A stretch of DNA of 64,000 nucleotides from Rubrivivax sp. (GTDB lineage: Bacteria > Pseudomonadota > Gammaproteobacteria > Burkholderiales > Burkholderiaceae_C): contig JAHBZS010000008.1 in NCBI GenBank assembly GCA_019635285.1, forward strand, positions 16,557 through 80,556, given 5' to 3'. The notes below the pieces were generated by a model, which worked only from the letters and a program-made list of their open reading frames with translations, had not been told where the DNA came from and ran no database searches. Made by a program: the position numbers and the translations under genes. Positions 1,147 to 56,084 of the stretch are shown here, piece by piece; positions within the stretch are counted from its first letter, which is position 1; each line of letters starts with the position of its first letter.

Positions 1147-7827
<6,681 letters not shown>

Positions 7828-7903: not shown

Positions 7904-8887
7904 ATGACCCCGATCCTGACCCGCCGTGGCGCGCTGCGTCTGGCCGCAGCCTGGCCGCTGGCCGGCACGCTGCCGTTGCGCGCACAAGCGGTTTTTCCCG
8001 AACGCCCGATCACCGTGATCGTGCCCTTCGGCCCCGGCGGCATCGCCGACCTGACGGCGCGTACCGTGACGCAGGCCATGAGCACGACGCTGAAGGTGCC
8101 GATGGTCGTCGACAACCGGCCCAGCGCCGGCAGCATCGTCGGCAGCGCGGCGGTGGCGCAGGCCGCGCCGGACGGCTACACGCTGCTGCTGATGAGCAAC
8201 GCCAACGCGGTGAGCGCGGGGCTGTTCAAGAAGCTGCCCTTCGACGTGCAGAAGGACTTTGCGCCGGTGGGCCTGCTGGGCGTGTTCGACCTGGCGCTGT
8301 TCGTCGCCGCGGATTCCAGGCTGAAGAGCGTGCGCGACGTGCTCGCCGAGGCCAAGGCCCGCCCGGGCAAGCTGACCATCGGTACCATCGCCGTGGGCAG
8401 CACGCAGCACCTGTCGGCGGAGCTGTTCAAGGCGCGCACCGGCATCGACGCGCTGATCGTGCCCTACAAGGGCTCGCCGGCGGTGCTGACCGCGCTGCGT
8501 GCCGGCGAGATCGACGTCGCCTTCGAGATCCTCGGCCCGATGCTGCCGCAGCTGCAGGCCAAGGTGGTGCGCGCGCTGGCCGTGACCTCCGACCGCCGCT
8601 TCGCCGCGCTGCCCGAGGTGCCGACGATGCGCGAGGCGGGGGTGGCCGACTACGAGGTGGCCTCATGGAACGCGCTGGCCGCGCCGGCAAAGACGCCGCC
8701 GGCGGTGATCGAGCGCCTCAACGCCGCCGCCAACGACGCGCTGAAGACCCCCGCGGTGCAAGAGCGGCTGCTGGCGTTGGGCGTGCGCGCGCAGGGCGGC
8801 ACGCCGCCGCAGCTGCAGCTGCTGCTGGCGCGCGAGCTGCGGCATTGGGGCGAGGTCATCCGCGCCGCAAAGATCGAGCCCGAATGA
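7904..8887 (+). CDS. Bug/TctC-family tripartite tricarboxylate transporter solute-binding protein
   Basis: Periplasmic solute-binding protein of 327 residues, the usual Bug length. The N-terminus [16 protein letters not shown] with RAQA cleavage looks like a twin-arginine-type signal peptide. The mature start [16 protein letters not shown] and the later [20 protein letters not shown] and [11 protein letters not shown] blocks are Bug hallmarks. A GGAGG stands 7 bases before ATG 7904. No TctA/TctB membrane genes are nearby, which is common for the many orphan Bug proteins of Burkholderiales. The LysR gene immediately downstream on the same strand may regulate it. Ligand unknown; carboxylates are typical of the family. 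Confidence 0.9.
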
Positions 8888-8923
8888 GCGCGCAGCGGGC
8901 CAGGCGTTGCGGGTGACGGTGGC

Positions 8924-9829
8924 ATGGACCTGAAGCAGCTCGAGTACTTCGTGCACGTGGCCGAGTTCGGCAGCTTCACGCTGTCGTCGCGTTTCCTGCG
9001 CGTGGCGCAGCCGGCGCTGAGCCGGCAGGTGCGCGCGCTGGAGGTGGAGCTGCGGCAGACGCTGTTCCAGCGCAACGGCCGCGGCGTCACGCTCACCGAG
9101 CCCGGCAAGCGGCTGCTGGAGCATGCGCGCGGCATCCTGCAGCAGGTGGAGCGCGCGCGCCACGACCTGGAACAGCAGCGCGGCGCGGTCACCGGCCGGC
9201 TGGTCATCGGCCTGCCGCCGAGCGTCAGCCGCACGCTCACCGGGCCGCTGGTGCGCACCTTCCGCGAGCGCTTTCCCGAGGCCAGCTTCGGCGTCGTCGA
9301 GGGCCTGTCGGACCATCTGCTGGAATGGCTGGCGGTGGGCCGGGTGGACTTTGCGCTGGTCTACAGCGGCAGCGCACCGGCGTCGATCGAGCTGGCGGCG
9401 CTGCGCGTCGAGCCGATGTACCTGGTGGGCGCGCGATCGGCGCGCGCCGGCGCCAAGCTGGTCGGCCCGGCGGTCAGCCTGGAGCAGGTGGCTGCCGCCG
9501 AGCTGGTGATCCCGCCACGGCCGCATTCGATCCGCATGCTGCTCGATTCGACCCTGGCCGACGCGGGCCTGAAGGCGCGTGTCGCGCTGGAGATCGAAAG
9601 CGTGCCGACGATCCTGGACCTGGTGCAGCACGAAGGCTTCCACGCGGTGCTGACGCTGAACGCCATCCGCCGCAGCGGCAACGAGGCCGGCTTCCAGGCG
9701 CGGCCGATCGGCAAACCGCGCCTGGCCGCGACGCTGCGCCTGGCGACCTCGGCGCAGCGCCCGGGCGGGCCGTTGATGGAGCAGGCGATCGCGCTGGTCA
9801 GGGCGCTGGTGGCGGCGCACTGGGCGTGA
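8924..9829 (+). CDS. LysR-family transcriptional regulator
   Basis: Standard-length LysR protein (301 residues). Residues 1-60 hold the winged helix-turn-helix (LKQLEYFVHVAEFGSFT, then RVAQPALSRQVRALEVEL), followed by a linker helix and a two-lobed effector-binding domain from about residue 90. It lies 36 bases after the Bug gene on the same strand, so it probably controls that gene and itself. Its last 32 bases overlap the 3' end of the convergent MFS gene. Family is certain; effector is not. Confidence 0.92.
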   Translation: MDLKQLEYFVHVAEFGSFTLSSRFLRVAQPALSRQVRALEVELRQTLFQRNGRGVTLTEPGKRLLEHARGILQQVERARHDLEQQRGAVTGRLVIGLPPSVSRTLTGPLVRTFRERFPEASFGVVEGLSDHLLEWLAVGRVDFALVYSGSAPASIELAALRVEPMYLVGARSARAGAKLVGPAVSLEQVAAAELVIPPRPHSIRMLLDSTLADAGLKARVALEIESVPTILDLVQHEGFHAVLTLNAIRRSGNEAGFQARPIGKPRLAATLRLATSAQRPGGPLMEQAIALVRALVAAHWA

Positions 9830-43816: not shown

Positions 43817-44851
<1,035 letters not shown>

Positions 44852-46268: not shown

Positions 46269-46306
46269 TGCACCAAGCACAGGCGCAAACGGTTGCAGAT
46301 GGTGCG
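46269..46306. promoter_or_regulatory. Possible NtrC-type half-sites
   Basis: TGCACCA (46269-46275) and TGGTGCG (46300-46306) are inverted and lie 40-80 bases upstream of the -24 element, where NtrC enhancers sit. Spacing is longer than a standard single NtrC site, so this is tentative. Confidence 0.35.
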
Positions 46307-46347: not shown

Positions 46348-46363
46348 TGGCACGCGCATTGCG
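46348..46363 (+). promoter_or_regulatory. Sigma54 (RpoN) promoter for the nitrate operon
   Basis: TGGCACGCGCATTGCG matches the RpoN consensus TGGCACG-N4-TTGC, with GG (46349-46350) and GC (46361-46362) ten bases apart as required. The predicted start near 46374 is just upstream of the ANTAR leader. It implies nitrogen-limitation control on top of nitrate-responsive antitermination. Confidence 0.82.
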
Positions 46364-46382
46364 TAGGTCTTTTCAAGGTTGG

Positions 46383-46429
46383 CGCACAACGGCGTGCGTG
46401 CAAGCGATGGATTCGGGCAAAGGCGTCCG
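46383..46429 (+). ncRNA. ANTAR-target leader: two hexaloop hairpins
   Basis: P1: stem CGCAC (46383-46387) / GTGCG (46394-46398) around loop AACGGC. P2: stem CGGGC (46414-46418) / GTCCG (46425-46429, one G-U pair) around loop AAAGGC. Both loops have six bases with A at position 1 and G at position 4, the defining feature of ANTAR substrates, with a 15-base linker. P2 shares bases 46419-46427 with the terminator stem, so the two structures exclude each other. NasT binding should stabilise P1/P2 and allow read-through into nrtA. Confidence 0.88.
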
Positions 46430-46494
46430 GCTCGTCGGCTCCGGGTTGTTGTCCCTGGCGCCGGCAGTCGAGACGCCTTTTCTGTTCTTGTCTT
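46419..46494 (+). terminator. Conditional terminator in the nitrate-operon leader
   Basis: AAAGGCGTC (46419-46427) pairs with GACGCCTTT (46472-46480), followed by a T-rich tail TTTTCTGTTCTTGTCTT. The 44-base loop can itself fold. Its 5' arm is part of the P2 antiterminator hairpin. Confidence 0.8.
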
Positions 46495-46529
46495 CGGGGG
46501 AGTGGGTCATGTGCGAGCGCGAGGGTCTG

Positions 46530-47759
46530 ATGAGTCATCCACGCCGGCAGTTCATCAAGGGGTCGGCGGCGCTGGCCGCCGGGTCGGCGCTGACGGGGGC
46601 CTGGGCCGCCGGCTCCGACGCGCCGGAGAAGAAGGAGGTGCGCATCGGCTTCATCCCGCTGACCGATTGCGCCTCGGTGGTCATGGCCTCGGTGATGAAG
46701 TTCGACGAGAAGTACGGCATCAAGATCATCCCCACCAAGGAAGCGTCGTGGGCGGGGGTGCGCGACAAGCTGGTCAACGGCGAGCTCGACATGGCGCACG
46801 TGCTGTACGGGCTGGTCTACGGGGTGCACCTGGGCATCGGCGGGCCGAAGAAGGACATGGCCGTGCTGATGACGCTGAACAACAACGGCCAGGCGATCAC
46901 GTTGAGCAAGAAGCTCGCCGACAAGGGCGCGGTCGATGCGGCGTCATTGTCCAAGGCGATGGCCGCGGAGAAGCGTGACTACACCTTCGCGCAGACCTTT
47001 CCCACCGGCACGCACGCGATGTGGCTGTACTACTGGCTGGCCAGCGCGGGCGTCAACCCGATGAAGGACGCCAAGGTGATCACCGTGCCGCCGCCGCAGA
47101 TGGTGGCCAACATGCGCGTGGGCAACATGGACGGCTTCTGCGTCGGCGAGCCGTGGAACCACCGCGCCATCCTCGACGGCATCGGCATCACCGCGGTGAC
47201 CACGCAGGACATCTGGAAGGACCACCCCGAGAAGGTGCTGGGCAGCACCGCCGACTTCGTCAAGGCCCACCCCAATACCGCGCGCGCCGCGATCATGGCC
47301 GTGATGGAGGCCGGCCGCTGGATCGACGCCAGCCTGAACAACAAGATGAAGATGGCCGAGGTCATTGCCGAGAAGTCCTACGTCAACACCAGCGTCGACG
47401 CCATCAACCAGCGCATCCTGGGCCGCCACCAGAACGGCTTGGGGCGCACCTGGGACGACCCGAACTACATGAAGTTCTTCAACGACGGTGCGGTGACCTA
47501 TCCGTACCTCAGCGACGGCATGTGGTTCCTGACGCAGCACAAGCGCTGGGGCCTGGTGAAGAGCCATCCGGACTACCTGGCCGTGGCCAGGCAGATCAAC
47601 CAGACCGAGCTCTACAAGCAGGCCGCGGCGCAGCTGAAGGTCAGCGTGCCGAAGAGCGAACTGCGCGCCAGCAAGCTCATCGACGGCGTGGTCTGGGACG
47701 GCAAGGACCCGGTGAAGTACGCCGACAGCTTCAAGATCAACGCCGTCACGGCGGGCTGA
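46530..47759 (+). CDS. nrtA: Nitrate/nitrite ABC transporter substrate-binding protein
   Basis: 409 residues. Twin-arginine signal PRRQFIKGSAALAAGSALTG, then KEVRIGFIPLTDCASVVMA, the standard start of NrtA/CmpA binding proteins, with later GTHAMWLYYWLASAGVNP and DGFCVGEPWNHRAI. Captures nitrate in the periplasm for NrtBD. I choose ATG 46530 (MSHPRRQ) after GAGGG; ATG 46509 is possible. NasS sensors are homologous but lack export signals; the signal here argues for the transporter role. Confidence 0.92.
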   Translation: MSHPRRQFIKGSAALAAGSALTGAWAAGSDAPEKKEVRIGFIPLTDCASVVMASVMKFDEKYGIKIIPTKEASWAGVRDKLVNGELDMAHVLYGLVYGVHLGIGGPKKDMAVLMTLNNNGQAITLSKKLADKGAVDAASLSKAMAAEKRDYTFAQTFPTGTHAMWLYYWLASAGVNPMKDAKVITVPPPQMVANMRVGNMDGFCVGEPWNHRAILDGIGITAVTTQDIWKDHPEKVLGSTADFVKAHPNTARAAIMAVMEAGRWIDASLNNKMKMAEVIAEKSYVNTSVDAINQRILGRHQNGLGRTWDDPNYMKFFNDGAVTYPYLSDGMWFLTQHKRWGLVKSHPDYLAVARQINQTELYKQAAAQLKVSVPKSELRASKLIDGVVWDGKDPVKYADSFKINAVTAG

Positions 47760-47769
47760 GGGAGCGACG

Positions 47770-48684
47770 ATGAACAGTGCCGTGTTCAACCCCAGCGCCG
47801 CAGCCTCCACGGCCTCGACGGCCGCCGAGCCGCCGCGATTGGCCGCCGCGGCGCCGGCCGCGCCACGCGCTGCCGCATCGTCGCCGGCGCGTGCACCGCG
47901 CCCGCCGATCGACTGGCGCGGCGTCTGGCTGGCCGTGCTGCCGCCGCTGCTGGGCATCGGCCTGCTGGTCGGCATCTGGGCCGTCGCCACCGCGGGCAGC
48001 AGCAGCCTGCCCACGCCGGCCGCCACCTTCGAGGCCGCGGTCAAGCTCTTCGCCGACCCGTTCTACCGCAACGGCCCCAACGACGTGGGGCTGGGCTGGA
48101 ACGTGCTCAACTCGCTGCAGCGCGTGGCCATCGGCTTCGGCCTGGCGGCGGCGGTGGGCATTCCGCTGGGCTTCGTCATCGGCCGCTTCGACTTCGTCGG
48201 CCGCATGTTCGGGCCGCTGATCAGCCTGCTCAAACCCGTGTCGCCGCTGGCCTGGCTGCCGATCGGCCTGCTGGTCTTCAAGCGCGCCGACCCGGCGGCC
48301 ATCTGGACCATCTTCATCTGCTCGATCTGGCCGATGGTGGTGAACACCGCGGTGGGCGTGCAGCGCGTACCGCAGGACTACCTGAACGTGGCGCGCGTGC
48401 TCAACCTGAACGAGTGCAAGGTCATCACGCGCATCCTCTTCCCGGCGGTGCTGCCGTACATGCTGACCGGCGTGCGGCTGTCGGTGGGCACGGCCTGGCT
48501 GGTGATCGTTGCCGCCGAGATGCTGACCGGCGGCGTGGGCATCGGCTTCTGGGTGTGGGACGAGTGGAACAACCTCAACGTCAAGCACATCATCGTGGCG
48601 ATCTTCGTCATCGGCATCGTCGGCCTGGCGCTGGAGCAGTTGCTGATCGCCATTGCCCGCCGCTTCAGCTACGAGGAGCGGTGA
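47770..48684 (+). CDS. nrtB: Nitrate ABC transporter permease
   Basis: 304 residues. An Ala/Pro-rich cytoplasmic N-terminus of about 45 residues precedes six membrane helices of the NrtB/SsuC type. The ABC-permease coupling loop is NVARVLNLNECKVITRILFPAVLP (seen as VARVLNLNECK and FPAVLPYMLTG). Ten bases after nrtA and two before nrtD. Confidence 0.94.
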   Translation: MNSAVFNPSAAASTASTAAEPPRLAAAAPAAPRAAASSPARAPRPPIDWRGVWLAVLPPLLGIGLLVGIWAVATAGSSSLPTPAATFEAAVKLFADPFYRNGPNDVGLGWNVLNSLQRVAIGFGLAAAVGIPLGFVIGRFDFVGRMFGPLISLLKPVSPLAWLPIGLLVFKRADPAAIWTIFICSIWPMVVNTAVGVQRVPQDYLNVARVLNLNECKVITRILFPAVLPYMLTGVRLSVGTAWLVIVAAEMLTGGVGIGFWVWDEWNNLNVKHIIVAIFVIGIVGLALEQLLIAIARRFSYEER

Positions 48685-48686
48685 CC

Positions 48687-49484
48687 ATGAAGAGCTTCAT
48701 CGACATCCAGGGCGTGGAGATGGTGTTCGCCACGCGCAAGGGGCGCTTCCATGCGCTGCGCGAGATCGACCTCGACGTGGCGCAAGGCGAGTTCGTCACG
48801 CTGATCGGCCATTCCGGCTGCGGCAAGAGCACGCTGCTCAACCTGATCGCCGGGCTGACGCTGCCCACCGACGGCGTGCTGCTGTGCGACAACCGCGAGA
48901 TCGCCGCGCCGGGGCCGGAACGCGCGGTGGTGTTCCAGAACCATTCGCTGCTGCCCTGGCTGAGCGCTTTCGAGAACGTACACCTGGCGGTGGAGCGCGT
49001 GTTCGCGGCCACCGAATCGCGTGCGCAGCTGAAGCAGCGCACCGAGGCGGCGCTGGCCCTGGTCGGCATGGACCACGCGCTGGGCAAGCGCCCGCACGAG
49101 ATCTCCGGCGGCATGAAGCAGCGCGTGGGCATCGCCCGTGCGCTGGCCATGGAGCCGAAGGTGCTGCTGATGGACGAACCCTTCGGCGCGCTGGACGCGC
49201 TGACGCGCGCCAGGCTGCAGGACGAGCTGCTGAAGATCGTCGCGCGCACGCGCAGCACGGTGGTCATGGTGACGCACGACGTCGACGAGGCGGTGCTGCT
49301 GTCCGACCGCATCGTGATGATGACCAACGGCCCGGCCGCGACCATCGGCCAGATCCTGCGCGTGGACATTCCGCGGCCGCGCGAGCGCGTCGCGCTGGCC
49401 GAGGACCGGCATTACGTGCAGTGCCGCAAGGAGGTGCTGGACTTCCTCTACACGCGGCAGGGCCACGTCGAGAAAGCCGCATGA
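48687..49484 (+). CDS. nrtD: Nitrate ABC transporter ATP-binding protein
   Basis: 265 residues. Walker A GHSGCGKST, Q-loop FQNHSLLPWL, signature ISGGMKQRVGIARAL, Walker B VLLMDEPFGALDA and switch His in VTHDVDEAVLL. It energises nitrate uptake through NrtB. There is no fused NrtA-like sensor domain as in cyanobacterial NrtC. ATGA overlap with the GAF gene. Confidence 0.95.
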   Translation: MKSFIDIQGVEMVFATRKGRFHALREIDLDVAQGEFVTLIGHSGCGKSTLLNLIAGLTLPTDGVLLCDNREIAAPGPERAVVFQNHSLLPWLSAFENVHLAVERVFAATESRAQLKQRTEAALALVGMDHALGKRPHEISGGMKQRVGIARALAMEPKVLLMDEPFGALDALTRARLQDELLKIVARTRSTVVMVTHDVDEAVLLSDRIVMMTNGPAATIGQILRVDIPRPRERVALAEDRHYVQCRKEVLDFLYTRQGHVEKAA

Positions 49485-50416
49485 GCACCACCTTCATCCG
49501 CGCCGTCGAAACCTGGGTGCCCGGCGTCGACCGCAGCCCGCTCGAATTCGGCGGCGGCCTGTATGGCGAAGCGCGGCGCTTCGGCAACGCCAGCCGCGGC
49601 CTGTGCTTCGGCTTCGGCGAGGGCCTGCCCGGCCAGGCCTGGGAAGCCGGCCGCCCGGTGGTGCTGAAGGACCTGTCCGGCGGCAACTTCCGCCGCAGCG
49701 GCGCCGCCATGGCCGACGGCCTGAGCTGCGGCATCGCGTTGCCGATCTTCGCCGGCGAGGTGTTGACCTCGGTGCTGGTGATCTTCTGCGGCGACGACGA
49801 GGCGCATGCCGGCGCCATCGAGCTGTGGCACAACGACTCGGCCGCATCGAAGGACATGACGCTGGTCGACGGCTACTACGGCACGACCGGCGAGGCCTTC
49901 GAATACAGCTCGCGCCGCACCGCCTTTCGCCGTGGCCACGGCCTCCCCGGCATGGCCTGGGACAGCGGGCTGCCGGTGTTCATGGACGACCTGGGCCACG
50001 GCAGCCGCTTCCTGCGCGCCGATAGCGCTTTGCAGGTGGGCATCAACCGCGGCTTCGCGCTGCCGTGCAGCAGCCTGGGCGCCGGGCAGTACGTGATGAC
50101 CTTCCTGTCGGCGCTGGCGACACCGTTGGTGCGCCGCTTCGAGATCTGGCTGCCCGACGCCAGCCGCACGCGGCTGCAGCGCAGCTACGGCTTCAGCGAA
50201 GGCGAGGGCGTTCTGCAGGGTGGCGCGCCGCTGATCGAGCGCGGCCAGGGCTGCATCGGCCGCAGCTTCGCCACCGGCGCGCCGGCCTTGAGCGACGAAG
50301 CCGGTAGCGAGCCGCGGGTCGGTGCGGCCGCCGCGGCCGCGGGGCTGGAGCAGCTGGTGGCGGTGCCGCTGCTGCAGCAGGGCCGGCTGATGGCCAGCGT
50401 GGCCTGGTACTTCTGA
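49481..50416 (+). CDS. GAF-domain protein inside the nitrate operon
   Basis: 311 residues, cytoplasmic. A recurring GAF motif appears three times: GEGLPGQAWEAGRPVVLKDL (about 47), GHGLPGMAWDSGLPVFMDDL (about 152) and a weaker GQGCIGRSFATGAPALSDEA (about 254). Each is followed by hydrophobic strands such as CGIALPIFAGEVLTSVLVIF and LVAVPLLQQGRLMASVAWYF. There is no output domain, so it must act through a partner. Coupled to nrtD by ATGA and 16 bases before nirB. It may be a nitrate, nitrite or redox sensor, or an accessory of NirB/NasA. Confidence 0.8.
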   Translation: MSTTFIRAVETWVPGVDRSPLEFGGGLYGEARRFGNASRGLCFGFGEGLPGQAWEAGRPVVLKDLSGGNFRRSGAAMADGLSCGIALPIFAGEVLTSVLVIFCGDDEAHAGAIELWHNDSAASKDMTLVDGYYGTTGEAFEYSSRRTAFRRGHGLPGMAWDSGLPVFMDDLGHGSRFLRADSALQVGINRGFALPCSSLGAGQYVMTFLSALATPLVRRFEIWLPDASRTRLQRSYGFSEGEGVLQGGAPLIERGQGCIGRSFATGAPALSDEAGSEPRVGAAAAAAGLEQLVAVPLLQQGRLMASVAWYF

Positions 50417-50432: not shown

Positions 50433-52889
50433 ATGCAAAAGATGAAACTGGTGATGGTGGGCAACGGCATGGCCGGCGTGCGCACGCTGGAAGAGCTGCT
50501 GAAGATTGCGCCCGATCTATACGACATCACCGTGTTCGGCGCCGAGCCGCACCCCAACTACAACCGCATCCTGCTGAGCCCGGTGCTGGCCGGCGAGCAG
50601 ACGGTGGACGAGATCATCCTCAACCCGCTGGCCTGGTACGACGAGCACGGCATCCGCCTGCACCTGGGCCGGAAGGTGACGCGCATCGACCGCGTCAAGC
50701 GCCTGGTGCATGCCGAGGACGGCACCGCCGCGGCCTACGACCGGCTGCTGCTGGCCACCGGCTCCAGCCCCTTCATCCTGCCGGTGCCCGGCAAGGACCT
50801 GCCGGGCGTGGTTGCCTACCGCGACATCGCCGACACGCAGGCGATGATCGACGCGGCCAGCCGCTACCAGCACGCGGTGGTCATCGGCGGTGGCCTGCTC
50901 GGGCTGGAGGCGGCCAACGGCCTGATGCGCCGCGGCATGCAGGTGACGGTGGTGCACCTGATGCCGTGGCTGATGGAGCGCCAGCTCGACGAGGTGGCCG
51001 GCGGGCTGCTGCGCCAGTCGTTGCAAGAGCGCGGCATCCGCTTCGAGCTGGGCGCGCAGACGGCCGAGCTGGTGGCCGGCAGCGCAGGACGGGTCGCCGC
51101 GGTGCGCTTCAAGGACGGCCGCGAGATCCCCGCCGACCTGGTGGTGATGGCGGCCGGCATCCGCCCGAACACCGCGCTGGCCGAGAGCGCCGGCCTGCAC
51201 TGCCACCGCGGCATCGTCGTCAACGACACGCTGCAGACCGTGACCGACCCGCGCATCTATGCGGTGGGCGAATGCGCGGCGCACCGCGGCATCGCCTACG
51301 GCCTGGTGGCGCCGCTGTTCGAGCAGGGCAAGGTCTGCGCGACGCACCTGGCGCACTTCGGCATCGGCCGCTACACCGGCAGCCAGACCAGCACCAAGCT
51401 CAAGGTGACCGGCATCGACCTGTTTTCGGCCGGCGACTTCATGGCCGGCGAGGGCAGCGAGGAGATCGTGCTCAGCGACCCCTATGCCGGCGTCTACAAG
51501 AAGCTGGTCATCAAGGACGACAAGCTGGTGGGCGCCTGCCTGTACGGCGACACGGTGGACGGCAGCTGGTACTTCAAGCTGCTGCGCGAAGGCCGCACCG
51601 TGGCCGACATCCGCGACAAGCTGATGTTCGGCGAATCCAGCCTGGGCGATACCGGCCACCAAGGCCACAGCAAGGCCGCGGCGATGGCCGACGGCGACGA
51701 GGTCTGCGGCTGCAACGGTGTGACCAAGGGCACGATCTGCAAGGCCATCAAGGACAAGGGGCTGTTCACCTTGGACGAGGTGCGCAAGCACACCAAGGCC
51801 AGCGCCAGCTGCGGCTCGTGCACCGGGCTGGTCGAGCAGCTGCTGATGGCCACCGCCGGCGGCGACTACAGCGCCACGCCCAAGACCAAGGCGATGTGCG
51901 GCTGCACCGACCACGGCCACCAGGCGGTGCGCGACGCCATCCGCGAGATGCACCTGCTGAGCATCGACGAGGTCTACCGCACGCTGGACTGGCGCACGCC
52001 CAACGGCTGTGCCAGCTGCCGGCCGGCGGTCAACTACTACCTGATCAGCAGCTGGCCCAAGGAAGCGCGCGACGACCCGCAGAGCCGTTTCATCAACGAA
52101 CGCAGCCACGCCAACATCCAGAAGGACGGCAGCTACAGCGTGATCCCGCGCATGTGGGGCGGCGTGACCAGCGCCGACGAGCTGCGCCGCATCGCCGACG
52201 CGGTGGACAAGTACAAGATCCCGACCGTCAAGGTCACCGGCGGCCAGCGCATCGACCTGCTGGGCGTGAAGAAGGAAGACCTGCCCGGCGTGTGGCAGGA
52301 CATCGGCATGCCCAGCGGCCATGCCTACGCCAAGGCGCTGCGCACGGTGAAGACCTGCGTGGGCAGCGAGTGGTGCCGCTTCGGCACGCAGGACTCGACC
52401 AAGATGGGCCAGGACCTGGAGCGCGCGCTGTGGCGCATGTACGCGCCGCACAAGGTCAAGCTGGCGGTGAGCGGCTGCCCGCGCAACTGCGCCGAGGCCG
52501 GCATCAAGGACGTGGGCGTGGTCGGCGTCGATTCGGGCTGGGAGATCCACATCGCGGGCAACGCCGGCATCAAGACCGAGGTGGCGCAGTTCCTCGTCAA
52601 GGTGAAGACGGCGGACGAGGTGCTGGAAGTCAGCGGCGCCTTCCTGCAGCTGTACCGCGAGGAAGGCTGGTACCTGGAGCGCACCGTGCACTACGTGCAG
52701 CGCGTCGGCATGGACCACGTGAAGCAGCGTGTGCTGGACGATGCCGCCGGCCGCCGCGCGCTGTGGGAGCGGCTGCAGTTCAGCCTGGATGGCGAGCCGG
52801 ACCCGTGGTTCGAGTTCGACAAGGCGCAGGTCGACCTGCGCCAGTTCCAGCCGCTGCGGCCGGTGATCCAGATCGAGGAGACAGCATGA
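50433..52889 (+). CDS. nirB: Assimilatory nitrite reductase [NAD(P)H], large subunit
   Basis: 818 residues. N-terminal FAD/NAD pyridine-nucleotide oxidoreductase (VMVGNGMAGVRTLEEL, then AVVIGGGLLGLEAANGL), two BFD-like [2Fe-2S] regions (VCGCNGVTKGTICKA with SCGSCTGL, and a second Cys cluster with NGCASCRPAV). The C-terminal sulfite/nitrite reductase domains have the siroheme/[4Fe-4S] ligands in TCVGSEWCRFGTQDS and SGCPRNCAEAGIKD. Reduces nitrite to ammonium in the cytoplasm. Confidence 0.96.
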   Translation: MQKMKLVMVGNGMAGVRTLEELLKIAPDLYDITVFGAEPHPNYNRILLSPVLAGEQTVDEIILNPLAWYDEHGIRLHLGRKVTRIDRVKRLVHAEDGTAAAYDRLLLATGSSPFILPVPGKDLPGVVAYRDIADTQAMIDAASRYQHAVVIGGGLLGLEAANGLMRRGMQVTVVHLMPWLMERQLDEVAGGLLRQSLQERGIRFELGAQTAELVAGSAGRVAAVRFKDGREIPADLVVMAAGIRPNTALAESAGLHCHRGIVVNDTLQTVTDPRIYAVGECAAHRGIAYGLVAPLFEQGKVCATHLAHFGIGRYTGSQTSTKLKVTGIDLFSAGDFMAGEGSEEIVLSDPYAGVYKKLVIKDDKLVGACLYGDTVDGSWYFKLLREGRTVADIRDKLMFGESSLGDTGHQGHSKAAAMADGDEVCGCNGVTKGTICKAIKDKGLFTLDEVRKHTKASASCGSCTGLVEQLLMATAGGDYSATPKTKAMCGCTDHGHQAVRDAIREMHLLSIDEVYRTLDWRTPNGCASCRPAVNYYLISSWPKEARDDPQSRFINERSHANIQKDGSYSVIPRMWGGVTSADELRRIADAVDKYKIPTVKVTGGQRIDLLGVKKEDLPGVWQDIGMPSGHAYAKALRTVKTCVGSEWCRFGTQDSTKMGQDLERALWRMYAPHKVKLAVSGCPRNCAEAGIKDVGVVGVDSGWEIHIAGNAGIKTEVAQFLVKVKTADEVLEVSGAFLQLYREEGWYLERTVHYVQRVGMDHVKQRVLDDAAGRRALWERLQFSLDGEPDPWFEFDKAQVDLRQFQPLRPVIQIEETA

Positions 52890-52951
52890 ACGCGCATGGC
52901 CGTGACGAAGCGGGTAGGGCGGAGCGCGCCGCGCGCAGGAGTGTCGAATGA
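52886..52951 (+). CDS. 21-codon mini-ORF coupling nirB to nirD
   Basis: MNAHGRDEAGRAERAARRSVE. Its ATG overlaps the nirB stop (ATGA) and its TGA overlaps the nirD start (ATGA), so ribosomes could re-initiate twice in a row across an otherwise 58-base gap. The peptide is Arg/Ala-rich with no motif. It may serve only as a coupling device; product stability is unknown. Confidence 0.45.
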   Translation: MNAHGRDEAGRAERAARRSVE

Positions 52952-53298
52952 ACGACTGGGTCTACGTCTGCCGTGTCGAGGACATTCCGCTGCTCGGCGC
53001 CCGCCGCGTGGCACGCGAACGCGGCGCCGCGGTGGCGGTGTTCCGCGCCGCTGGTGACCGCGTGTTCGCGCTGCTGGACCGCTGCCCGCACAAGGGCGGG
53101 CCGCTGTCGCAGGGCATCGTCACCGCCGACGGCGTGGCCTGCCCGCTGCACAACTGGACGATCGGCTTCAGCGACGGCTGCGCCCGCGCGCCGGACCAGG
53201 GCTGCACGCCGACCTTCGCGGTGCAGGTGACGGACGGGCGTGTGCACCTGGATGCCCGCGAGCTGCTGGCGCATGCGGTGGAGCCGTTGGCCGTCTGA
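52948..53298 (+). CDS. nirD: Nitrite reductase small subunit, Rieske type
   Basis: 116 residues. Rieske [2Fe-2S] ligands are complete: DRCPHKGGPLS (Cys-x-His) and ACPLHNWTIGF (Cys-x2-His). This matches assimilatory NirD forms that keep the cluster, unlike the enterobacterial subunit, which lacks the ligands. Partner of NirB. Confidence 0.94.
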   Translation: MNDWVYVCRVEDIPLLGARRVARERGAAVAVFRAAGDRVFALLDRCPHKGGPLSQGIVTADGVACPLHNWTIGFSDGCARAPDQGCTPTFAVQVTDGRVHLDARELLAHAVEPLAV

Positions 53299-53309
53299 AC
53301 GCCCCGACG

Positions 53310-56084
53310 ATGGCCGAGACCCGCTCCACCTGTCCGTATTGCGGCGTGGGCTGCGGCGTGATCATTCAAAGCGAAGGCACGCAGATCACCGGCGTGCGCG
53401 GTGACCCCGCGCATCCGGCCAACTTCGGGCGGCTGTGCACCAAGGGCAGCACGCTGCACCTGACGGCCGCGGCGCATGTGACGCGCCAGGTGCGCGCGCT
53501 GCAGCCGCTGCGCCGGGCGGTGCGCGGCGCGCCGCTGCAGCCGGTGGGCTGGGAGGCGGCACTGGACGAGGTGGCCGGGCGCTTTGCCGACATTGTGCAA
53601 CGCGACGGCCCCGACGCGGTGGGGCTGTACCTGTCGGGCCAGCTGCTCACCGAGGACTACTACGTCTTCAACAAGCTGGCCAAGGGCCTGCTGGGCACCA
53701 ACAACGTCGACACCAACTCGCGGCTTTGCATGAGCAGCGCGGTCTCCGGCTACAAGCGCAGCCTGGGTGCCGACGCGCCGCCGGCCTGCTACGACGACTT
53801 GGGGACCGCGCAGACGGTGCTGATCACCGGCTCCAACATGGCGTGGGCACATCCGGTGCTGTTCCGCCGCTTGGAGGACGCACGCGCCGCCAACCCGGCG
53901 CAGAAGTGGATCGTCATCGACCCGCGCCGCACCGAGACGGCCGCGGTGGCCGACCTGCACCTGCAACTGCAGCCGGGGACGGACGTCGTGCTGCACCATG
54001 CGCTGCTGCACCTGATGCTGTGGGAGGGGCTGACCGATATCGCCTACATCGCCGCGCACACCACTGGCTTCGAGGCCTTGCGCGACCGCGTGCGCGAGTT
54101 CACGCCGGCGCATGCCGCCAAGGTCTGCGGCCTGAAGATCGACGACATCGTGCAGGCGGCGCGCTGGTTCGCCGGTGTGCAGCCCGATGGCACGCGCACG
54201 CCGACGCTGTCGCTGTGGTGCCAGGGGTTGAACCAGAGCAGCAGCGGCACCGACAACAACGCCACGCTGATCAACCTGCACCTGGCCACCGGGCAGATCG
54301 GCCGGCCCGGTGCCGGACCGCTGTCGCTGACCGGCCAGCCGAATGCGATGGGCGGCCGCGAAGTCGGCGGCCTGGCCACGCAGCTCAGCGCGCATCGCGA
54401 CCTGGACAACCCGCTGCACCGTGCCGAAGTGGCGGCGCTGTGGGGCGTGCCCGAGGTGCCCGCCACGCCGGGCAAGGCGGCGGTACGCATGTTCGAGGCC
54501 GCGGCGGACGGCGAGATCAAGGCGCTGTGGATCGCCTGCACCAACCCGGCACAGTCGCTGCCCGACCAGGCCACCGTGCGCCGTGCGCTGCAGCGTGCCG
54601 AGTTCGTCGTGCTGCAGGAGGCGTACACCCATACCGCGACCGCGGCCTATGCCGACCTGCTGCTGCCGGCCAGCAGCTGGGGCGAGAAGCAGGGCACGGT
54701 GACCAACAGCGAGCGCCGTATCAGCCGCGTGCGCGCCGCCATTGCGCCGCCCGGCGAAGCGCGCGCCGACTGGGCCATCGCGGTGGCCGTGGCACGGCGC
54801 CTTGAGGCGCGGCTGCGCCCGGGGCAACCGACGCTGTTCCCGTACGACACGCCCGAGCAGGTGTGGAACGAGCACCGCGACAGCACGCGCGGCCGCGACC
54901 TCGACATCACCGGACTCAGCTACGCCGCGCTGGAACGGCAGCCGCAGCAGTGGCCCTTTGCCGCCGATGTGGCCGAAGGCACGGCGCGGCTTTATGCCGA
55001 CGGCCGCTTCGCCACCGCCGACGGCCGTGCGCGTTTTGTCGCGCCGGCCTGGCGCGGCGTGGCCGAGGCACGCGACGCGCGCTTTCCCGTCGCGCTGAAC
55101 ACCGGCCGCCACCGCGACCAGTGGCACGGCCTGAGCCGCACCGGCACGCTGGGCCGGCTGTTCGCGCATGCCGGCGAGCCGGCGGTGGAGATGCATCCGC
55201 AGGAGCTGGCGCGGCGGCGGCTGGGCGCGGGCGACCTGGTGCGCATCAGCTCGCGCCGCGCGTCGCTGGTGCTGCCGGTGCAGCCCAGCGAGGCGGTAGC
55301 ACCGGCGCAGGCCTTCATCGCCATGCACTGGGGCAGCGAGTTCCTCAGCGGCCAGGGCGTCAACGCGCTCACCAGCCCGGCGACCTGCCCGCAGTCGCAG
55401 CAGCCCGAGCTGAAGCACGCGGCGGTGCGCATCGAGCGCGCCGAGCTGCCCTGGCAGATCGCCGCCGCGGCCTGGCTGCCGGCCGACGAGGCGCTGGTGC
55501 TGCGCGAGCGCCTGCGCGCGCTGTTCGACCGTTTCGACTACGCCAGCTGCGTGCCCTTCGGCCGCGAGCCCGACGAGCTGCTCGGCCTGCGCTTGCGCGC
55601 CGCGTTGCCGGCCACCGCCGAGCCGGGCCTGCTGCGCGAGGTCGGCGCCGCGCTGGGCCTGGCCGATGGCCCGGTGCTGCGTTATGCCGATGCGCGCAGC
55701 GGCCAGAGCCGGGCGATGGCGCTGGGGGCGGACGGTGCCTTGCGCGCCTTCCTGCTGGCCGGCGACATCGCCGCCGACGCGTGGGTGCTGGAGCTGCTGC
55801 GCGAACGCGCGCCGGCGGCCGCCTTCGGCCGCGCGCTGCTGGCCGCCAGCCGCCTGCCGCCGCAGGCGCTGGCGCCGCGCAGCCCGCAGGTCTGCGCCTG
55901 CCACGACGTCAGCGAAGCGCGCATCCTGCAGGTGCTGGCCGCATCGGCCGGCGGCCCCGACCAACGCCTGCAGGCGCTGCAGCAGCAGTTGCGCTGCGGC
56001 ACGCAATGCGGCTCCTGCCTGCCGGCGCTGCGCGGGCTGGTGCAGCGCCAGGCCGCGCTGGAGCCCGCCGTGGGAACCGTATGA
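53310..56084 (+). CDS. nasA: Assimilatory nitrate reductase catalytic subunit
   Basis: 924 residues. N-terminal [4Fe-4S] motif CPYCGVGCGV...RLCTKG, followed by the molybdopterin oxidoreductase domain (TNNVDTNSRLCMSSAVSGYK, GTDNNATLINLHLATGQIGRPG, LTGQPNAMGGREVGG) and the C-terminal dinucleotide-binding domain (FPVALNTGRHRDQWHGLSRTG). The last 70 residues are a BFD-like [2Fe-2S] domain (VCACHDVSEARI, CGTQCGSCLPAL) as in Klebsiella-type NasA. Reduces nitrate to nitrite in the cytoplasm. ATGA overlap with the SUMT gene. Confidence 0.96.
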   Translation: MAETRSTCPYCGVGCGVIIQSEGTQITGVRGDPAHPANFGRLCTKGSTLHLTAAAHVTRQVRALQPLRRAVRGAPLQPVGWEAALDEVAGRFADIVQRDGPDAVGLYLSGQLLTEDYYVFNKLAKGLLGTNNVDTNSRLCMSSAVSGYKRSLGADAPPACYDDLGTAQTVLITGSNMAWAHPVLFRRLEDARAANPAQKWIVIDPRRTETAAVADLHLQLQPGTDVVLHHALLHLMLWEGLTDIAYIAAHTTGFEALRDRVREFTPAHAAKVCGLKIDDIVQAARWFAGVQPDGTRTPTLSLWCQGLNQSSSGTDNNATLINLHLATGQIGRPGAGPLSLTGQPNAMGGREVGGLATQLSAHRDLDNPLHRAEVAALWGVPEVPATPGKAAVRMFEAAADGEIKALWIACTNPAQSLPDQATVRRALQRAEFVVLQEAYTHTATAAYADLLLPASSWGEKQGTVTNSERRISRVRAAIAPPGEARADWAIAVAVARRLEARLRPGQPTLFPYDTPEQVWNEHRDSTRGRDLDITGLSYAALERQPQQWPFAADVAEGTARLYADGRFATADGRARFVAPAWRGVAEARDARFPVALNTGRHRDQWHGLSRTGTLGRLFAHAGEPAVEMHPQELARRRLGAGDLVRISSRRASLVLPVQPSEAVAPAQAFIAMHWGSEFLSGQGVNALTSPATCPQSQQPELKHAAVRIERAELPWQIAAAAWLPADEALVLRERLRALFDRFDYASCVPFGREPDELLGLRLRAALPATAEPGLLREVGAALGLADGPVLRYADARSGQSRAMALGADGALRAFLLAGDIAADAWVLELLRERAPAAAFGRALLAASRLPPQALAPRSPQVCACHDVSEARILQVLAASAGGPDQRLQALQQQLRCGTQCGSCLPALRGLVQRQAALEPAVGTV

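Follow-up and report, generated by a model that had tools for sequence, protein, structure and literature searches.

How can a nitrate assimilation operon that stands behind nasT respond to nitrate if no NasS is encoded with it? This question is raised by a 64,000-nucleotide stretch of DNA from Rubrivivax sp. (the whole analysed stretch, hereafter the window). In this window, a leader between nasT and genes for nitrate uptake and reduction (Table 1) had been described in an initial annotation as the textbook NasT mechanism behind a sigma54-type promoter, with dual control by nitrogen status and nitrate. According to the accessible part of the work on Paracoccus denitrificans, NasS is a cytoplasmic nitrate sensor that keeps NasT inactive until nitrate binds (PMC3795266). 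The missing sensor is the main question here.

Table 1. Features of the leader and the adjoining genes (positions in the window)
Feature	Position	Strand	Basis
nasT, receiver-like and ANTAR domains, 212 aa	45604..46242	+	Pfam ANTAR 69.8 bits, Response_reg 30.2 bits
Inverted half-sites GCACCA-N24-TGGTGC	46270..46305	+	candidate NtrC enhancer, inference
Sigma54-type -24/-12 element	46348..46362	+	sequence; loose pattern in relatives; RpoN encoded
P1 hexaloop hairpin	46382..46399	+	sequence, folding, leader comparison, covariation
P2 hexaloop hairpin (antiterminator)	46413..46430	+	sequence, folding, leader comparison, covariation
Intrinsic terminator	46419..46489	+	sequence, folding, motif count vs shuffles (z -5.29)
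nrtA-type nitrate-binding protein, twin-arginine signal	46530..47759	+	Pfam NMT1_2 343 bits, TAT_signal 25.1 bits
Nitrate ABC transporter permease	47770..48684	+	NCBIfam TIGR01183 245.5 bits (cut-off 209.05)
Nitrate ABC transporter ATPase	48672..49484	+	NCBIfam TIGR01184 340.3 bits (cut-off 291.8)
GAF-domain protein	49481..50416	+	Pfam GAF_2 55.7 bits, searched from 49487
nirB, nitrite reductase large subunit	50433..52889	+	Pfam NIR_SIR, Fer2_BFD and others
nirD-like Rieske protein	52948..53298	+	Pfam Rieske 61.7 bits
Probable assimilatory nitrate reductase (nasC/nasA type)	53310..56084	+	Pfam Molybdopterin 224 bits; named from context

As the initial annotation stated, nasT lies directly upstream of the leader. 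Its product, which has an ANTAR and a receiver-like domain, shares 41-88% identity with its counterparts at 80 named loci discussed below. The first gene behind the leader encodes a binding protein whose closest solved structure is NrtA (2g29, E 1.1e-81). For this gene, the start at 46530 was preferred over an in-frame ATG at 46509; a ribosome-site-like GAGGG precedes the ATG at 46530, and likewise in the relatives L040, L043 and L044. Inspection by eye revealed no convincing internal start that would yield an unexported NrtA. The GAF gene sits between the transporter ATPase and nirB and occurs in few relatives only. The NCBIfam matches of the nitrate reductase all stay below their cut-offs (Fdh-alpha 506, NasA 479 and NasC 466 bits). 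An IS110-type transposase fragment (44144-44803, minus strand, Pfam 85.2 bits) is located upstream of nasT.

The leader itself can be read in detail. The promoter element consists of TGGCAC (46348-46353), a gcgca spacer and TTGC (46359-46362), and the spacing predicts a transcription start near 46374. P1 is formed by GCGCAC (46382-46387) and GTGCGT (46394-46399) around the loop AACGGC (46388-46393), P2 by TCGGGC (46413-46418) and GTCCGG (46425-46430) around AAAGGC (46419-46424). In both hairpins a C:G pair closes the loop, and both loops have A1 and G4. The terminator takes the P2 loop and its 3' stem as its 5' arm (AAAGGCGTC, 46419-46427), pairs it with a 3' arm (GACGCCTTT, 46472-46480) and ends in a modest U-tract (TTTTCTGTTCTT, 46478-46489). 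Since 46419-46427 is common to both, P2 and the terminator are mutually exclusive. Folding agrees with this anatomy: for RNA that stops after P2 (46374-46432), P1 and P2 are predicted (-19.8 kcal/mol), while for RNA 46374-46495, P1 and the terminator are predicted, with a z-score of -4.29 and equal stability in 0/200 shuffles. The terminator region folded alone (46412-46484) gave the z-score listed in Table 1. A simple terminator scan restricted to loops of 3-8 nt missed this terminator and returned one weak site in the window (46352-46364), which overlaps the promoter and compares with 0.5 expected by chance. The A1/G4 hexaloops ahead of a terminator, and the sharing of the second loop and 3' stem with the terminator, had both been claimed in the initial annotation, and their coordinates and sequences proved correct. 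Together with the U-tract and the nearby ANTAR gene, these are the features that mark ANTAR two-hairpin attenuators, so that 46348-46489 is confirmed as an ordinary, well-built attenuator of this known class, to which it adds one clear example.

Might the hairpins have arisen by chance beside an ordinary terminator, with no ANTAR regulation at all? The P1/P2 pair is not unusually stable (z -0.38 for RNA 46374-46432), and an Rfam search of the window at gathering scores gave no match, as such an origin would have it. For the chance estimate, the motif was defined as a pair of A1/G4 hexaloops, each closed by C:G and carried on a stem of 5 bp or more, at a distance of 20-70 nt from one another and followed by a downstream complement of the P2 loop and 3' arm in T-rich sequence. 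Counting both strands, the window contains one such motif, and 60 dinucleotide-shuffled windows contain none. Moreover, the stems covary: among 13 leaders, 92.8% of 139 stem cells are paired, the covariation score is 0.661 against 0.211 +/- 0.040 in 500 shuffles (none of which reached it) and at most 0.209 in slid controls, and 29 cells carry changes on both sides as compared with 10.8 in shuffles. As a leader is also found behind nasT in most relatives, we regard a chance origin as extremely improbable, the shuffled windows and the covariation ruling it out as a working candidate.

A wider comparison covered the window and 22 relatives (P1 in 23 leaders; P2 in 22, with L051 left out; L047b was dropped as it had no sigma54 match). 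P1 pairs 1-3 are kept in 23/23 leaders, with up to six pair types. The constancy of A1 and G4 in the relatives is there by construction, because their hexaloops were selected for A1, G4 and a stem, either by rule or by eye (e.g. P1 of L045 and P2 of L052). A model (R2) built on the 13 leaders, the window being one training row, scored 55 bits at the window leader; the next best match in the genome reached 20.3 bits (E 1.27), so the R2 search found no second convincing leader copy there. At E up to 1, R2 matched 66/80 named nasT loci (at least three of the 80 are on the same contigs as training rows: L041/L093, L042/L094, L044/L097), and a scripted position check placed 63 of the 66 matches within 2.6 kb after nasT. 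The leaders vary in several ways. Three consecutive hexaloop hairpins are present in L049, L050 and L051, with loops exactly 25 nt apart in L050. L054-L059, which belong to the same genus and possess a different NasT (about 45% identical), have a second type of leader, in which some 58 nt separate the loops. In L047, one cluster holds two nasT copies (4351-4932 and 8444-9022), and behind either copy there is at least one hexaloop hairpin.

As for the sigma54-type promoter claimed in the initial annotation, it was borne out by the sequence, by the relatives and by the single RpoN match in the genome (216.7 bits). A -24/-12 element was present in 43/48 related leaders (from 48 of the 66 loci that R2 matched), as judged by a loose pattern that had no shuffled control. 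The nearest relatives L092-L096 and L098 have GTGC as their -12 element, and the window keeps TTGC. Upstream of the promoter lies the inverted pair of half-sites, which may be an NtrC site. The GCACCA/TGGTGC pair recurs with 24-25 nt spacing in the window, L093, L094, L095, L097 and L098 and with other spacings in L149, L161 and L147; it was not found in L092 and L096. The best NtrC match in the genome (C65, 2180-3551) is split over two frames with 388.7 and 281.1 bits, neither reaching 558.6, possibly owing to a real frameshift or to a sequencing or assembly error. A published sigma54 survey, in its accessible part, predicts sigma54 promoters for NasT-type genes (PMC12316311). In Acidovorax citrulli, a member of the same taxonomic order, the available text reports that deletion of ntrC abolished nitrate use, with the gene called nasS down and nasT up, a result that supports nitrogen control (PMC10052978). 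Of the predicted dual control, the nitrogen-status half, which would operate through sigma54/NtrC, is plausible; for the nitrate half, a textbook sensor is lacking.

The description as textbook NasT holds for the two-hairpin attenuator with nasT upstream and is not supported as regards NasS. Next to nasT, the window shows no NasS, and searches of the genome with a single NasS query (E up to 1e-15) and with a profile of 15 rows (E up to 1e-20) did not find one either. In both searches, the sole match was the operon's own Tat-signalled NrtA-type protein. The assembly is 94.5% complete in 89 contigs, so this absence is not proof. A textbook nasS might reside in its missing part or be too divergent for detection. 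Six weaker PF13379 matches at other places of the genome (scoring from 81.1 down to 20.7 bits, under the limits of the NasS searches) would fit the latter; of the two that were read, L005 has a signal peptide and L004 gave no clear call. Also, a Burkholderia paper lists nasS, by homology in the part available (PMC5524735). Several observations argue against a hidden nasS. NasT was detected in 25 of 61 genomes compared (E <1e-30), and only G039, the source of the query, had a strong NasS match among these 25. The complete relatives G043 (one contig, 100%) and G050 (100%) likewise lack NasS by profile, their only match being the binding protein that adjoins nasT. The profile gives the NasS of G039 380 bits, although this NasS is itself a profile row. 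Finally, more than half of the named nasT loci (see below) do without NasS in the fetched flanks. A hidden nasS is improbable in our estimate. More distant second binding proteins (34%-type) were considered as a hidden NasS as well and rejected, as 10/10 that were read in relatives carry Tat signals. In the literature on NasS/NasT of Betaproteobacteria, a limited set seen mainly as titles, we met no report of NasT without NasS.

We then classified the closest 80 of 593 named nasT loci by hand, from family matches, signals and tree. Classical NasS was assigned to 23 loci (16 gamma-, 4 alpha- and 2 betaproteobacterial, 1 unplaced), a signal-less protein grouping with NrtA to 12, and neither was seen in the fetched flanks of 45, of which 39 are labelled Betaproteobacteria. 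A binding protein with a twin-arginine signal is present in 40 of these 45; among the rest, L144, L148 and L152 are cut or masked, and L127 and L143 differ (L127 was scored as lacking RR, but RR is present further upstream). A member of the binding-protein family is in the fetched stretch of 79/80 loci, the exception, L152, ending soon after nasT. Tat export by itself does not mark a sensor, since some genomes with classical NasS use Tat-type NrtA too (10/15 signal-bearing NrtA with RR, 5 without). It appears that NasT operates without NasS in many Betaproteobacteria.

Which protein, then, could report nitrate to NasT? GAF domains often sense small ligands, and the GAF-domain gene (49481-50416) lies in the operon, which makes its product a conceivable partner. 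It was detected in only 3/24 compared loci (L041, L054 and L056; some loci are short) and in 1/80 named loci (L093, whose contig is that of L041), while nasT without NasS is common. This rarity rules it out as a general sensor, and even for the present operon we consider it very improbable. With no NasS found, the most likely source of the nitrate signal is the NrtA-type binding protein. Tat substrates are already folded when they leave the cytoplasm, and thus an exported NrtA may already serve NasT on its way out.

The signal-less relatives of this protein bear on the same point. In a tree of 108 binding domains, the 12 signal-less proteins (Massilia, Janthinobacterium, Pseudoduganella, Xanthomonas and others) group on a starred branch (98) that is nested within the clade of exported NrtA from Betaproteobacteria and separate from classical NasS. 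In the NasT tree, 7/12 NasT of signal-less loci fall among the NasS-less ones, and the other five (the Xanthomonas group and L141) take no resolved position. L098 goes with the window by its NasT and with Massilia by its binding protein. A check of 20 genomes found one copy of this protein in each of nine genomes with the signal-less form.

To this we added 60 further loci, hand-picked from 138 genomes (identity 39-64%, n=29; 66-74%, n=11; 75-86%, n=20), leaving out eight weak matches at 40-42% identity. They were found through the binding protein, so cases of its complete loss are not counted. Signals were called by rule and then reclassified by eye before tree and counts; the rule had missed the KR signals of L280, L282 and L283 as well as L297 (just below the hydrophobicity limit), and in L259, L269 and others it had scored an RR that belongs to the upstream text. 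An export signal (RR/KR) is present in 29/30 loci with ABC genes behind the protein and absent from 25/30 without them (Fisher p 1.2e-10, which overstates the evidence because the loci are related). L261, which ends 370 bases after the protein, and L263, with an unclear start, were both counted as signal-less without ABC genes. L246, L249, L253, L286 and L296 keep a twin-arginine signal with no ABC genes detected. A nasT gene lies within 1.6 kb of 25/26 signal-less proteins, and 13/34 signal-bearing loci show none within this distance.

L098 has nasT, a leader (R2 40.8 bits), the signal-less old protein and then a different Tat-type NrtA. In L273, nasT is followed by a sigma54 element, the signal-less old protein, a different exported NrtA and a permease; only the sigma54 element was scored there, and no C:G-closed hexaloop. 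In both loci, a different NrtA type has taken the place of the transporter, yet the old protein, now devoid of its signal, has kept its position behind nasT. For L251 and L257, the order is nasT, leader, signal-less protein, nirB, and the transporter is gone. An unexported protein that is kept by nasT after the transporter has gone would most simply have a cytoplasmic job with NasT. Residues of the Tat cleavage region (G[S/T]DxPE) are retained in 14/26 and 3/12 signal-less rows, in 52/54 Tat-type rows (including L143, the same locus as L277) and in 0/25 rows taken as classical NasS. That signal-less proteins so often keep them points to loss of the signal rather than gain. A tree of 126 rows requires at least six changes of signal state, or four if only starred branches are counted; it is rooted at the midpoint with the main signal-less group across the root, which leaves the direction of change open for that group. 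Only L248, L273, L143 and L254/L257 are signal-less among signal-bearing rows. In both trees of the binding protein the signal-less rows have long branches, for which false joins are to be reckoned with.

Based on these observations, a model can be proposed. Under nitrogen limitation, the sigma54 promoter, presumably driven by NtrC, would start the leader RNA, which by default would fold into P1 and the terminator, stopping transcription before nrtA. Free NasT would bind the A1/G4 loops of P1 and P2 and hold P2 as an antiterminator, allowing read-through into nrtA, the permease, ATPase, GAF, nirB, nirD and nitrate reductase genes. The nitrate-free NrtA precursor would hold NasT inactive in the cytoplasm, and nitrate binding would release it. 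Anatomy, covariation and gene order of the attenuator are direct observations; NasT binding and read-through are expected here by analogy with NasR, EutV and NasT studied elsewhere. The whole reading, i.e. this attenuator with the folded Tat precursor of the NrtA-type protein as the nitrate sensor of NasT, seems to us about as probable as not, if slightly below even, its sensor step being deduced from sequence comparison. Against NrtA as a sensor speaks that the mature protein would be mostly periplasmic. The broader proposal is more tentative still: in many Betaproteobacteria, the sensor of NasT might be the transporter's Tat-exported binding protein, acting in the cytoplasm as a folded precursor, from which signal-less sensors arose repeatedly on transporter swap or loss, so that NasS would have originated a second time. 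Should the transport protein indeed double as the sensor, a single gene would couple uptake to regulation, and its signal-less derivatives would show a part of a transporter turning into a regulator.

The main rival holds that NasT is active whenever it is made, that nitrogen status, via sigma54/NtrC, is the only signal to which the operon responds, and that the hairpins serve as a brake tuned by the amount of NasT. In its favour, no NasS was found in the genome; the Paracoccus nasS mutant, in the text available, expresses the genes without nitrate (PMC3795266), and the inability of the Acidovorax ntrC deletion to use nitrate mentioned above is in line with it. Yet the conservation of two hairpins and a terminator across many genera argues for a variable signal, and a signal-less protein of the nitrate-binding type next to nasT in many loci argues that a sensor is wanted. 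We consider a constantly active NasT rather unlikely.

Two Rfam families matched the window below their gathering scores, namely narK RNA (RF03032; 23 bits, E 0.021, gathering 43.2) and P11 (RF00625; 18.2 bits, E 0.056, gathering 70). The consensus sequences of both contain a -24/-12 element and a hexaloop sequence. For narK RNA, matches occurred in 15/150 genomes and 12 loci (L216-L227) were read: the six on the scanned strand had at least two scored hexaloops, and the six on the minus strand, unscored, show the reverse-complement pattern by eye. These loci adjoin nasT/nrtA or nasC, or precede an MFS transporter gene (L227) or an EAL-domain gene (L224). In L224, the EAL-domain gene (1504-2880, Pfam 138.6 bits) directly follows a leader with a sigma54 element and two hexaloops, so nitrate control of c-di-GMP breakdown is possible there. 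P11 matches were obtained in 12/369 genomes; a sigma54 element and a P2 hexaloop are present in 11/12 loci (L232-L242, at about 1501-1640), before nirB (4) or an NrtA-type gene (7), while P1 was scored in fewer and L243 shows none. Only L232 exceeds the gathering score, and it is directly followed by nirB. In two papers, as far as their accessible text goes, P11 is described as an sRNA by which P. aeruginosa PA14 induces inherited avoidance in C. elegans, and one of them has it regulate the nirB-nirD-nasC operon (PMC10977744, PMC12080996). Judged by their sequences, the loci matched by either family mostly look like the same sigma54-plus-ANTAR leader, and the simplest reading would equate P11 with the attenuated leader; the literature searched yielded no paper that connects the two. 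Two Rfam families would thereby receive a simple reading as sigma54-plus-ANTAR leaders, one of them being the sRNA of the C. elegans avoidance response.

Among known systems, the nasF leader with NasR and the eut leaders with EutV, as described in the parts available, likewise have two A1/G4 hexaloops with C:G closing pairs and a second hairpin that competes with the terminator (PMC3369931, PMC7496416, PMC3369936). The regulator differs: it is NasT with a receiver-like domain here, whereas the nasF leader uses NasR with a NIT domain. The NasS-NasT system of Paracoccus denitrificans, according to the accessible text, similarly has nasT by the nitrate operon and a hairpin leader before the structural genes (PMC3795266, PMC5424462). 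In contrast to Paracoccus, no cytoplasmic NasS was found here, and the leader has nasT on one side and the gene of the nitrate-binding transport protein on the other. The NasS-NasT system is also present in Azotobacter vinelandii. A precedent for an NrtA-like domain that is used for regulation in the cytoplasm is provided by the ATPase NrtC, and the binding protein of the operon aligns both with NrtA (2g29) and with the NrtA-like domain of NrtC (8w9m, 8wm7). Unlike these, it is Tat-signalled, and the role proposed for it would be exerted on an RNA-binding regulator.
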